Assembly: GCA_019695235.1 (NCBI GenBank)
Contig: JAIBAI010000017.1
Location: forward strand, 1-51,827
Length of the DNA stretch: 51,827 nucleotides
Direction of reading: 5' to 3'
DNA from: Bacteroidia bacterium
Lineage (GTDB): Bacteria > Bacteroidota > Bacteroidia > M30B66
The position numbers were made by a program, and so were the translations under genes. The first letter of the stretch is position 1; each line of letters starts with the position of its first letter. Shown one piece after another: positions 22,865-27,105 of this stretch. The notes under the pieces were generated by a model. That model had not been told where the DNA came from and did not search any database. It saw only the letters and a program-made list of their open reading frames with translations.

Positions 22865-24709
22865 TTAAACGTTCACTAATTCAACCTGTACCTGAGATTC
22901 CCAGGTGGTGCAGTAATTGCTTACGGTACGTTTGAAGGCATCCAGTTCTTCACGCATCTTTGCTTTGAACTCCTCGGTTTCATGTGTCATCTTGGGGAGC
23001 AATTGCTTATAGTATTCAACCCCCTCAAGCAGGTTGTTCTTGAAATTGGCAAACATCTTCGCCTGCTTAGCACCGGGGAAGTGGATGTTCTTCTTTAGTT
23101 CCTTTTTCAAATAATTACTGTACAACTTCAACTCATTTACAAATGTGTGTGAACGGTACATGGATTTGAGCAAATTCATCCTGCCATAAATATGGTTTAC
23201 CATCTCCTCTAATGTGCTGATGCGATTAAAATAAGCGAGATTCGGACCAGGGCAGATGGTAACTGCATCGAGCTTATGATCTACCGGCAAACCGTTCTTG
23301 AGTATTGGCGTAGTTGAAAGCCCGTCGCAAAGACAGTCTTTTGAAGTAACCTCATGATATTGTTTGTTATACTCATCTTCTGTGATGCTAAACTGTAACT
23401 TAGCATCTAAAAGTGCTTTTAGCTTCAGGTGTTGGTATTGCCTTGAAGCTGTGCAAATAGGCTTCTCGGTAAATTCAGTATTGAACTCAAGTAATTTTTT
23501 GTAACAAGGGCTGCCCGGACGCCCCTTAGCGAGTCTGGCCTTTCTTTGTACTTCACCTGAACTATGCCTGAAATTATTAAAGGGTACGCCCAGCGGCGAA
23601 GCTTCACTTAAAAAATAGTCATCAGGTGCTGCATTTGCCAATTGATGAAGCGTCGTGTTATCTACATTGGTAGCTTCCGGCACTAATAAAAACGGACTCC
23701 CCCACCCTGTTGCATCCATGCCATAAAACTCACGGAGAAATACGTCTTCATTTCGGGTGCCAATGCCGCCCTGAACGGTAACTTTCACTGGTACTGAGGC
23801 CGACAGCATTGGTAGCCCTTTCTCTTCAAGTGCTTTGTTACACATGCCTAATAACTCAGCATGCAACTCATTGCGTTTTTCTTTGAACTCCTCTAAAATA
23901 GGCCCCAACAGATACCCTTCGGTCGGGAAGGCATGCCCGCCACAGTTCAAACCCGACTCTATGCGAAATTCCGAAACCCAGATACCTTTCTTGGCAAAGA
24001 ACTTACCCTGCACAAGTGCCGAACGATAATCACTTACCTTTAAAATAATCTTCTTCTGAATATGCCCGTTTTCATCAGCGTAGAAGTCTTTAAAATGCTC
24101 AACATAGGCAAACAAGCGTGGATTAAAACCAGCAGAAAAAACAATTGACGAATTCAGTTTACTATGGGCATAGCCTCTTAATGCTGAGAGGGCATCTGAA
24201 TATTCCGCCGGAAGCGGGTCGCCGTTTTTATCATAATTCAGGTTATCAACCTTCGACATGATATTCACATCAATTGAGCCTGGTTTTATCAAAGTACGTA
24301 ATTGCTCCTGAAGCGCAATTTTATTAGCACCCTCTGCCTTGAGCATAGCATGGTATAGTACTTGTTCTGAAGAATTTGCCGGAAGCATCCGGAAGTATTT
24401 ATCAAGCTCTGAATTTTGCTCAAAATCTTCTTGTTGCAAATGCTCTAATTGCCTTGCAATCATGAACTGTACCAAATCAAGATAGGCACTGATGCGTTTA
24501 GCCCTATAATCAATATCATCAACCGGAATTTCCTGGTAATCAATACCCAACTCGTTGCAATAATGTGCACGCATTTGTTCAAGCAAATTCACCTGCATAA
24601 TTGATATAACCGATGAAATCCCAAAACGTGCAACTTTTACCGGTGTGTCAACAGTAAAGCCTAAACCCATTACCGGTATATGAAAAGTATGTACTGAAAT
24701 TGTACCCAT
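22865..24709 (-). CDS. Large conserved protein of unknown function, possibly FMN TIM-barrel-like
   Basis: A 614-residue soluble protein with no signal peptide. I do not recognise a characterised family. The N-terminus (HIPVMGLGFTVDTPVKVARFG) and a central element (VKVTVQGGIGTRNEDVF near 310, then ATGWGSPFLLVPEAT near 337) resemble the phosphate-binding half of FMN-dependent TIM barrels such as nitronate monooxygenase or PfaD. Four Cys-containing segments follow (GSPCYKK, PICTASRQ, KDCLCDGL, ICPGPNLAY), then a helical tail. Those cysteines could bind metal, but the spacing fits no standard motif. ATG 24709 is used because a promoter box lies at 24762-24769; ATG 24751 is a realistic alternative. 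It converges on queD. Confidence 0.75.
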   Translation of the reverse strand: MGTISVHTFHIPVMGLGFTVDTPVKVARFGISSVISIMQVNLLEQMRAHYCNELGIDYQEIPVDDIDYRAKRISAYLDLVQFMIARQLEHLQQEDFEQNSELDKYFRMLPANSSEQVLYHAMLKAEGANKIALQEQLRTLIKPGSIDVNIMSKVDNLNYDKNGDPLPAEYSDALSALRGYAHSKLNSSIVFSAGFNPRLFAYVEHFKDFYADENGHIQKKIILKVSDYRSALVQGKFFAKKGIWVSEFRIESGLNCGGHAFPTEGYLLGPILEEFKEKRNELHAELLGMCNKALEEKGLPMLSASVPVKVTVQGGIGTRNEDVFLREFYGMDATGWGSPFLLVPEATNVDNTTLHQLANAAPDDYFLSEASPLGVPFNNFRHSSGEVQRKARLAKGRPGSPCYKKLLEFNTEFTEKPICTASRQYQHLKLKALLDAKLQFSITEDEYNKQYHEVTSKDCLCDGLSTTPILKNGLPVDHKLDAVTICPGPNLAYFNRISTLEEMVNHIYGRMNLLKSMYRSHTFVNELKLYSNYLKKELKKNIHFPGAKQAKMFANFKNNLLEGVEYYKQLLPKMTHETEEFKAKMREELDAFKRTVSNYCTTWESQVQVELVNV

Positions 24710-24761
24710 TCTAATTAAAATTAAGGTACCAGCAGAATACATGACACCCATATTACGCTTG

Positions 24762-24854: not shown

Positions 24855-25541
24855 GTGCGTAGCTGGCCTTTTTTCTTATTGCTAATAACAATCCTGCTTA
24901 AGTCATTCGGGCTAAAAGGACAGGATCAGATTTTTCTTCGGCATAACAATGAAGTAGTGTATTGTTTTATCATCCATGCCAATGACAGCCTGATTGTATT
25001 CAGGTCTGCTGAACCTGCTGACACTACCACTTACGAAATACAATTTACTGACACTTACGGATTTCTCCTGGAGAAACCAGCTGAAATGACAAAAGGTGCG
25101 AAAACGGCTGGCATGCAAATGCGGCTCTATCACCCCGATAAAAAACGTAATCATACTTACAGAGAGAACAGCCATTTTATCTTTAGCTTACTTAACGACT
25201 CTCTCAGGTATCCCCGGCAGGGCAAAATTACCCGTATAAGTCATGATTCAATTGAAGTAGAAACAAGCGTGCGCCATAAAAAAGACCGTTTAATGTTCGC
25301 CCTTAACGATTTTGAAGAATTTGGCTATACCACAGTCTTTACGGAGATACTTTCGTTGATTGTCTTCCCTTTTCCATGGGATAAAAATCCGGGGGACTTC
25401 TTCTACCGCCACATGCCCCCGGCCAAAGGATGGCAACTTCAGGTGTTGTCAGACAGTCCACGGAAAATTAAAAAAAGGGTTAAATGGAAACGTATTCGTC
25501 CCGGGGGAGCCGTTAAGCGCCGCATTCAGGGGAATAATTAA
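24855..25541 (+). CDS. Exported protein of unknown function
   Basis: The 228-residue product starts with a strong hydrophobic signal (about residues 4-22, cleavage near KGQ) and continues as a polar, beta-rich protein with a very basic C-terminus (KIKKRVKWKRIRPGG). I recognise no domain. A GTG start is assumed because no ATG is available before the signal region; TTG codons slightly downstream could also serve. It lies divergent from the 614-residue protein gene and upstream of the CarH-like gene but with its own context. Secreted small unknowns of this type are common in Bacteroidota. Confidence 0.65.
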   Translation: MRSWPFFLLLITILLKSFGLKGQDQIFLRHNNEVVYCFIIHANDSLIVFRSAEPADTTTYEIQFTDTYGFLLEKPAEMTKGAKTAGMQMRLYHPDKKRNHTYRENSHFIFSLLNDSLRYPRQGKITRISHDSIEVETSVRHKKDRLMFALNDFEEFGYTTVFTEILSLIVFPFPWDKNPGDFFYRHMPPAKGWQLQVLSDSPRKIKKRVKWKRIRPGGAVKRRIQGNN

Positions 25542-25587
25542 ACAAATCAGCCCCCGCTTCTGAACATTTCTGGCACTAAAGGTTTAA

Positions 25588-25595
25588 TATATTTG
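25588..25595 (+). promoter_or_regulatory. -7 box of the carH-like/idi operon
   Basis: TATATTTG 19 bases before the TTG start of the MerR-type gene. No TTG at the -33 position, which fits a promoter that needs or is subject to regulation. Confidence 0.6.
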
Positions 25596-25614
25596 CAGTT
25601 AATAAATTACACCG

Positions 25615-26538
25615 TTGAATAAGATTAAATTGGTCTTTACAATCGGAGACCTGGAAAATCTCACAGGAATAAGTACGCATACCATCAGGATATGGGAAAA
25701 ACGCTACAAGTTATTATGTCCGGAAAGAACAGATACCAATCTGCGGAGATATACCAGCAATGACTTACGGAAACTTCTCAATATCGCCACCCTTCAAAAG
25801 CATGGTGAGCGTATTTCACGCCTGGCCTTACTGAGTACTCACGAACTTGAGTGCCAAATCAATGATTTAACTCAACACGACGACGCCCTATCACCCAGCC
25901 TTAACGGTTTAAAAGTCGCAATGCTTGAGTTCGATAAAACCAAACTCGAACAGATATACCAACAACTCTCTACCCAATTTACTTTCAGAGAATTGTTTCA
26001 AAATATTCTTGTTCCCTTGCTTATAGAAATTGGCCGACTTTGGCAAACAGGGAACCTATGCCCGGCACATGAACATTTCATTTCGAATTTTATTCGCAAG
26101 AAAATTTATGTCCAGATTGACAAAATACCCGAAAACAATCATGTCGCTGAAGATGAATTTACCCGGGTAGTGTTTCTGCCACCCAACGAAATGCATGAAT
26201 TGGGCGCACTCTATCTCTATTACCGGCTTTTATCTGTCGGCCTGCATGCCATATACTTGGGTCAAAGTATCGAAACAACTGATTTACAAGCTATACGTGA
26301 TTCAATCAGTGGCCGGATAATGTACATCAGCTGGTGGACGGTTTATCCGGAAAAGGCAGGTGTTGCCGAGTTTTTTTCTGATTTTAAAAATAAACTCCTC
26401 AAACCGGAAGACCAGCTTTGGGTCACAGGTCATCATTTTAACTTATCATCTCCACCGGCCCCGGATACAAATATTTTTGTTTTCAAGAATCCTGCAGATT
26501 TGTTTCACAAGTTGTTTCCAGAGAACAGCAAAGTATAA
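25615..26538 (+). CDS. MerR-family regulator with cobalamin-binding domain (CarH-like)
   Basis: A 307-residue regulator: MerR helix-turn-helix (about 6-75, TIGDLENLTGISTHTIRIWEKR), a four-helix B12-binding cap (about 95-170) and a Rossmann-type B12 domain (about 183-300). Both signatures of CarH-type photoreceptors are present: W143-x9-E153-H154 in the cap, and E192-x-H194-xx-G197 for the lower cobalt ligand. In CarH, adenosylcobalamin gives a DNA-bound tetramer in the dark and light disrupts it, inducing carotenoid genes. The residue after Trp, which is the light-state His ligand in Thermus CarH, is Gln here. TTG 25615 is the only start after an in-frame stop at 25603. idi follows 30 bases downstream, consistent with isoprenoid/carotenoid control. 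Confidence 0.88.
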   Translation: MNKIKLVFTIGDLENLTGISTHTIRIWEKRYKLLCPERTDTNLRRYTSNDLRKLLNIATLQKHGERISRLALLSTHELECQINDLTQHDDALSPSLNGLKVAMLEFDKTKLEQIYQQLSTQFTFRELFQNILVPLLIEIGRLWQTGNLCPAHEHFISNFIRKKIYVQIDKIPENNHVAEDEFTRVVFLPPNEMHELGALYLYYRLLSVGLHAIYLGQSIETTDLQAIRDSISGRIMYISWWTVYPEKAGVAEFFSDFKNKLLKPEDQLWVTGHHFNLSSPPAPDTNIFVFKNPADLFHKLFPENSKV

Positions 26539-26568
26539 GCAGAAAATGTCTGGTAAAATTCACATCAA

Positions 26569-27105
26569 ATGAACAGCAATCAATTACTGGTGTTGGTTGA
26601 CGAAGAAGACCGGATGCTGGGCAGCATGGAGAAAATGCAAGCCCACCACGAAGGGCGGCTACACCGTGCGTTTTCAGTATTTATCTTTAACACAAAAGGA
26701 GAATGGTTGTTGCAACAACGAAGTGCGCAGAAATACCATTCTGCCAACTTGTGGTCCAATGCCTGTTGCAGTCACCCCGGGCCAAATGACGAAATTCTGT
26801 TAGCTGCCCAAAAGCGGCTTTATGAAGAAATGGGTTTGCGTTGTGCCTTACATCCCTTGTTTTCATTTACCTATAAAGTTCAGCTATGTGAAACCCTTAC
26901 AGAACATGAGTTCGACCATGTTTTCATAGGCATCTCAGACGAATTACCGGCAGCAAACACTGATGAAGTGGCCCAGTGGCGTTACATCAGTTATGCCGAT
27001 CTCTGCGCAGAATACAATGCAAATACTGAAAAATTCACTTATTGGTTTGGCCTCATTTTTCAGCAGGTAAATCAGGCAATGAAAAACATTACACCTACCC
27101 CATAG
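26569..27105 (+). CDS. idi: Isopentenyl-diphosphate delta-isomerase, type I
   Basis: The 178-residue Nudix-fold enzyme interconverts isopentenyl and dimethylallyl diphosphate, feeding carotenoid, quinone and other isoprenoid synthesis. The catalytic Cys is in the NACCSHP motif near residue 64, metal-binding histidines are in AHHEGRLHRA near 22-29, the Nudix-like glutamates in RLYEEMG near 85 and the catalytic Glu pair in TEHEFDHVF near 110. It is the second gene of a likely operon with the CarH-like regulator. No crtB, crtI or other carotenoid genes are in the window. Confidence 0.93.
   Translation: MNSNQLLVLVDEEDRMLGSMEKMQAHHEGRLHRAFSVFIFNTKGEWLLQQRSAQKYHSANLWSNACCSHPGPNDEILLAAQKRLYEEMGLRCALHPLFSFTYKVQLCETLTEHEFDHVFIGISDELPAANTDEVAQWRYISYADLCAEYNANTEKFTYWFGLIFQQVNQAMKNITPTP

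Follow-up and report, generated by a model that had tools for sequence, protein, structure and literature searches.

A regulator related to the cobalamin photoreceptor CarH is kept together with idi in a Bacteroidia genome from which carotenoid genes and photolyase seem to have disappeared. Its gene lies in the window, the whole 51,827-nt stretch of DNA analysed here, 30 nt ahead of idi (spacer 26539-26568). The sequence-only reading had described this pair as a CarH-like B12 photoreceptor candidate with Gln at the light-state histidine position, and had stressed the Gln. Our results place the odd part of the locus in its context and not in Gln144. The protein belongs to a Bacteroidota branch of CarH/LitR-like regulators, which join a DNA-binding MerR domain to a four-helix bundle and a cobalamin domain of Rossmann type. 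Taking the evidence together, we lean slightly towards a joint interpretation, in which it would act as an adenosylcobalamin (AdoCbl)-dependent repressor in what would be an operon remnant.

The regulator and its equivalence with Thermus CarH

The features of the locus are collected in Table 1. The regulator matched MerR_1 (PF13411, E 1.6e-14) and B12-binding_2 (PF02607, E 9.4e-12) over the Pfam cut-offs, and its closest solved proteins in a phmmer search were Thermus CarH/LitR (E 5e-20), which bears out the earlier assignment as a CarH-like MerR-type protein. The structure model had a pLDDT of 91 and included a Rossmann domain, and CarH stood on top of the list of PDB folds similar to it (E 4.6e-14). 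The NCBIfam CarH equivalog, NF052513, was the best family match at 94.7 bits, below its 400-bit cut-off. Because several of the defining CarH features that were tested are missing, the protein is called CarH-like here and not CarH. The TTG start is supported by the N terminus, MNKIK, which aligns with the MNNIK-type starts of relatives (encoded by ATG/TTG-AAC-AAT-ATT/ATA-AAA). A PADLOC match to mad1 (28.5 bits) covered residues 8-55 only; the anti-phage reading was rejected, since it is the generic MerR domain alone that matches. Upstream of the regulator lie genes for a 631-aa protein (22868-24760, minus strand) and a 228-aa protein (24855-25541, plus strand), both without a Pfam match.

Table 1. 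Features of the regulator-idi locus, in window coordinates
Feature	Position	Strand	Remark
CarH-like MerR regulator gene	25615..26538	+	Intact ORF, 307 aa, TTG start
MerR winged helix-turn-helix, residues 8-67	25636..25815	+	Pfam; S20/T21 replace K20/A21
B12-binding_2 four-helix domain, residues 97-165	25903..26109	+	Pfam
W143 and Gln144	26041..26046	+	Equivalents of Thermus W131 and light-state His132
E153-H154	26071..26076	+	Equivalents of Thermus E141-H142
E192-M-H194-E-L-G197	26188..26205	+	H194 equals lower-axial His177; M193 replaces Arg176
Glu220 for Pro of signature GxxxP	26272..26274	+	Pro in 147/150 relatives
TATATTTG, candidate promoter box, 19 nt before start codon	25588..25595	+	Matches Bacteroidota -7 element TAnnTTTG
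TTAAACAAA (reverse complement TTTGTTTAA), clade-motif core	25538..25546	.	Weak operator candidate
TTCACA-N5-TGAACA, single match to the tandem 11-bp repeat TnnACA of CarH	26559..26575	+	Across spacer and start codon of idi; weak
idi, isopentenyl-diphosphate isomerase type 1, 178 aa	26569..27105	+	Profile matches

With Thermus thermophilus CarH (class I; PDB 5C8D-F, 8C31-37) the protein shares the MerR, four-helix and Rossmann cobalamin domains, the Wx9EH motif, the axial His and the fold, at about 22-24% identity; it differs in having Gln for His132, Asn for Gly174 and Glu for Pro203, Met/Ser for the Arg176/Asp201 dimer pair, no SxT/V or GG, and no crt regulon. In the phmmer alignment, W143, Q144, E153, H154 and H194 paired with Thermus W131, H132, E141, H142 and H177. 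Since the stretch from W143 to H154 aligned without gaps, Gln144 corresponds to the light-state His, as the sequence-only reading had supposed, and the signatures W143-x9-E153-H154 and E192-x-H194-xx-G197 are present exactly as it claimed. Across 150 Bacteroidota relatives and the window protein, G140, W143, E153, H154, E192 and H194 were nearly or wholly invariant, the Trp of Wx9EH being found in 150/150 relatives.

The upper light-state His after the Trp is present in many, not all, CarH proteins. Among the 150 relatives the position held Gln in 122 and His in one, and within the crtI-type group Gln was found in 102 of 105. The view of Gln144 as a peculiarity of this protein was rejected; it was correctly seen but overstated, given that Gln is the family norm and already occurs in the photoreceptor SasPcob, so that it is not unprecedented. 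At the His132 position CtMerR has Arg and SasPcob has Gln, and both respond to light (PMC11796333). The light state of SasPcob is a water/hydroxide-ligated cobalamin, reached without a large domain movement (PMC10979010), which makes this protein a precedent for an aquo/hydroxo light state (PMC11796333, PMC10979010), although SasPcob has a biliverdin-binding domain of its own and has not been described among the MerR regulators. In Chloracidobacterium, CtMerR (PDB 8JBS/8JBT) combines a MerR domain with a cobalamin domain that responds to light and has no light-state His; it differs in its 14-15% identity in the fold match and in retaining all four signature elements. In Thermus CarH, the H132A protein bound AdoCbl normally, yet stayed mostly tetrameric after light (PMC10442372).

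Other parts of the cobalamin domain were lost. E192-M-H194-E-L-G197 conforms to the axial-His motif D/ExHxxG; the classic B12 motif also includes SxT/V and GG parts (PMC9304148), and the remaining x41-SxT/V-x22-27-GG was absent from the regulator, which has S239-W-W241 and G272-H273 instead. SxT/V and GG are missing almost throughout the Bacteroidota branch (GG in 5/150 relatives), and PF02310, undetected in the window protein, was found in 18 of 56 scanned family members. Similarly, the Arg176/Asp201 pair of the Thermus head-to-tail dimer is replaced by M193 and S218 in the regulator and by Ile/Leu and Ser/Thr/Asn in most relatives. The sequence-only reading had the signatures right and missed this branch-wide loss of Arg176/Asp201, SxT/V and the second Gly of GG. 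Of the SignatureFinder signature for light-responsive cobalamin-binding domains, GxxW (G140-W143) and EH (E153-H154) were found in the regulator; GxxH and GxxxP were not, the corresponding residues being N191-H194 and G216-E220.

Divergence of the protein and candidate operators

The window protein deviated at 7 of 47 near-invariant positions (those shared by at least 93% of relatives), and each of the 150 relatives at 0 to 4, by a consensus that is weighted heavily by Flavobacteriaceae, with members of many other families also in the 0-4 range. Two of the changes lie beside the recognition helix: K20S, at a position with Lys in 150/150 relatives, and A21T, with Ala in 146/150. Neither P220E nor the replacement of Lys20, set against 147/150 and 150/150 relatives, had entered the earlier picture of the regulator. 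In the tree, the end branch of the window protein measured 1.65 changes per column, versus a median of 0.46, and despite this length the pocket residues G140, W143, E153, H154, E192, H194 and G216 were kept. The protein joined the crtI-type clade with support of 100/98 and not the ECF-type proteins found in its own family; because of the long branch its exact place is uncertain. Vertical inheritance inside this family was not supported, as the protein's nine relatives there make up an ECF-type clade of their own. The lineage probably gained a crtI-type operon from outside its family.

The Bacteroidota -7 element has the consensus TAnnTTTG, and relatives carry it at about the same place ahead of their homologues of the regulator gene (CARH). 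The range given by the sequence-only reading began at 25588, where there is no codon of the regulator gene; this position coincides with the start of the TATATTTG box. In the crtI-type clade the -7 box takes the form TAnnTTTGTTTAA (clade motif TAnnTTTGTTTA), about 20-30 nt before the CARH start. TAnnTTTGTTTA preceded CARH at 35 of 79 Flavobacteriia loci, compared to 1 of 244 control promoters, and was also seen in other crtI-type families. TAnnTTTGTTTAA consists of a -7-like box fused to GTTTAA (for example at L192, L195, L199, L156 and L010) and at some loci (L010) is extended into an inverted repeat, TTTGTTTAA...TTAAACAAA. We regard TAnnTTTGTTTAA as a candidate autoregulatory operator of Bacteroidota CARH proteins. 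The clade motif TAnnTTTGTTTA was absent from the window promoter, where just TTAAACAAA is left; it overlaps the stop codon of the upstream gene, in an orientation and place unlike those in relatives, and is possibly due to chance. The loss of the motif, together with K20S and A21T, may reflect a changed DNA target or decay.

Matches to tandem TnnACA numbered 2 in the whole window against 2.4 expected, i.e. chance level, and tandem TnnACA operators before family members showed no excess over shuffled sequences. The GTGCGCACGAG words found before 23 of 113 relatives were rejected as an operator, as they belong to a tRNA gene (tRNA-Leu by sequence), and it is tRNA gene sequence that gives rise to the strongest shared words before CARH. 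At the Flavobacteriia loci L006, L008, L030, L054 and L073, a pair of tRNA genes separates aroK from CARH.

Operon context and gene content of the genome

The assignment of idi was confirmed by NF002995 (143.9 bits, cut-off 127), and TIGR02150 also scored over its cut-off. A census sampled 296 genomes of the class Bacteroidia. CARH homologues were found in 197, far beyond chance, and SQS_PSY (crtB and its kin) in 211; the two occurred together in 181, and 16 had CARH without SQS_PSY. The co-occurrence of CARH and crtB (181/197, odds ratio 26, p 5e-28) is to be read with the kinship of these species, which are not independent. In relatives, examined at 80 loci from the genome collection, nearly all of them from Flavobacteriaceae, as well as in many further Bacteroidia, CARH is the leading gene of CARH-crtI-crtB-(idi)-crtZ or CARH-ECF sigma-crtB/photolyase/idi operons. 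CARH-crtI-crtB-idi was found at L193 and L199, with idi between crtB and crtZ, and at L192 with one extra gene between. Bacteroidota CARH-crt regulators with a MerR and a B12-binding domain beside crt genes (e.g. Flavobacteriaceae GF1 peg.3275, PMC6974559) belong to the clade of the window protein; in contrast to these, the window locus has idi alone in place of the crt genes, and its protein carries K20S, A21T and P220E. Myxococcus xanthus CarA also combines a MerR with a cobalamin domain and regulates crt genes, but it lacks the Trp of Wx9EH, present here as W143, and works without B12 (PMC9304148).

The sequence-only reading had suggested idi alone, without local crt genes, as an economical regulon. 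The lack of local crt genes was borne out and extends further, as no SQS_PSY (crtB) gene was detected anywhere in the window genome, which is 100% complete and in which positive controls were detected. No match to a clade crtI was found in the genome either, a weaker negative than that for crtB as it had no positive control alongside, and no photolyase was found. What that reading overlooked was the missing photolyase and the look of a remnant operon. The genome is one of the 16 CARH-bearing genomes without crtB, 8 of which lack photolyase too. All five same-family genomes tested (G002, G003, G004, G006 and G008) had crtB and 2-3 photolyases; with CARH-ECF-crtB and without a match to idi, they show the reverse of what the window genome has. 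Because CARH-crtI-crtB-idi is known in the clade where the window protein groups, the CARH-idi pair is most simply read as a remnant of a CARH-crtI-crtB-idi(-crtZ) operon after crt loss, a reading against which the uncertain tree placement of the long branch has to be set.

In the genus g13, CARH-ECF sigma-idi units occur at L131, L184 and L191 and in the L182/L200 region of genome G061. In G061 a photolyase lies one gene after CARH-ECF-idi, and both G061 and G095 (g13) are without crtB. This parallel, in which idi would have become a target a second time, makes idi credible as a target, and not only as a neighbour, of the regulator. The window genome encodes the MEP enzyme IspH. The MEP route supplies both C5 units, making idi accessory and hence open to regulation. 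Genes for IcmF, which is an AdoCbl enzyme, and for a PduO adenosyltransferase are likewise present in the genome, so that AdoCbl is likely available.

Several further loci were of note in their own right. At L129 (genome G024) and L188 (genome G220), CARH and a crtZ-like hydroxylase gene share 4 nt and crtB is missing from the neighbourhood; G220 is entirely without crtB. Flavobacterium-like CARH-crtI-crtB-crtZ operons also stood on two contigs whose titles suggest MAGs that were mis-binned or mislabelled: L077 (CALPIE020000080.1) is filed as Bifidobacterium breve, L084 (CALPPA020000027.1) as Klebsiella pneumoniae.

Proposed mechanism and alternatives

From the residues and genes described above, we infer a mechanism that we rate as a little better than an even bet, in which the regulator binds AdoCbl and represses its own CARH-idi unit, the remnant of a crt operon. 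H194 would lie below the cobalt, with W143 and E153 flanking the adenosyl group. The AdoCbl-bound regulator would repress its own promoter (box 25588-25595) and hence the co-transcribed idi, and repression would be lifted by loss of the adenosyl group, through green light or AdoCbl shortage. With Gln at residue 144, release is predicted to end in a water/hydroxide-ligated cobalamin and not in a bis-His form. Against this mechanism stand the promoter, which is without the clade motif, the changes of K20, A21 and Pro220, the absence of SxT/V, GG and PF02310, and N191 in place of the Gly of GxxH; moreover, idi regulation would be of doubtful benefit without carotenoids or photolyase.

The nature of the signal divides the alternatives. 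A working green-light photoreceptor, in which AdoCbl is photolysed to an aquo/hydroxocobalamin released state and idi rises in light, is possible but somewhat doubtful. The retained W143, E153, H154, H194 and G140 would fit it, as do the light responses of SasPcob and CtMerR with Gln and Arg at the position of residue 144; on the other hand, two of the four SignatureFinder elements are replaced (N191 for GxxH, E220 for GxxxP), Thermus H132A largely remains tetrameric after light, and because photolyase, crtB and crtI are absent nothing else suggests that the organism encounters light. The same absence of photoprotection genes, with the pocket residues staying, would suit a cobalamin sensor that works without light, in which a dark-living lineage lets the AdoCbl level alone set DNA binding and idi expression; IcmF and the adenosyltransferase are also consistent with it. 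Some crtB-less relatives retain photolyase (8/16), which argues against such a sensor, and we know of no metabolic grounds on which idi should track AdoCbl; this reading, like that of a photoreceptor, is possible but somewhat doubtful. An evolutionary version, in which a CarH-type photoreceptor would have turned into a light-independent AdoCbl sensor with photoprotection abandoned, the DNA target shifted and idi as its entire remaining regulon, seems unlikely.

The divergence of the protein could also mean that it is a decaying relic, drifting after crt loss with idi expressed constitutively. The 7 deviations at 47 near-invariant sites (at most 4 in relatives), which include the recognition helix and Pro220, the missing operator motif and the end branch of 1.65 versus 0.46 point this way. 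The intact frame, the other pocket residues, all of which are kept, the high-confidence fold and the promoter box in place point the other way, and the long branch may be older than the crt loss; decay is conceivable, though we would not expect it. Cobalamin-independent action, with the domain kept for protein contacts, as in Myxococcus CarA or class II LitR, is the case for which we see the least chance, an improbable one. The family-wide loss of the SxT/V and GG motifs is compatible with it, and there are precedents in CarA, which is B12-independent, and in class II LitR, which works without B12 with a LOV partner. However, CarA is without the Trp that is invariant here (150/150), and class II LitR retains the four-helix domain only, whereas the window protein keeps the axial His and, in its model, the Rossmann domain.

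CarH-like proteins of this branch occur in about two thirds of the sampled class genomes and are mostly without the light-switch His and the dimer salt bridge of Thermus CarH, and among the papers available to us we found no biochemical study of any of them. The branch offers an opportunity to test which elements of the CarH mechanism hold generally. The window protein is kin to cobalamin photoreceptors in a genome where other light equipment is absent, which makes both its remaining sensing role and idi as its target testable.
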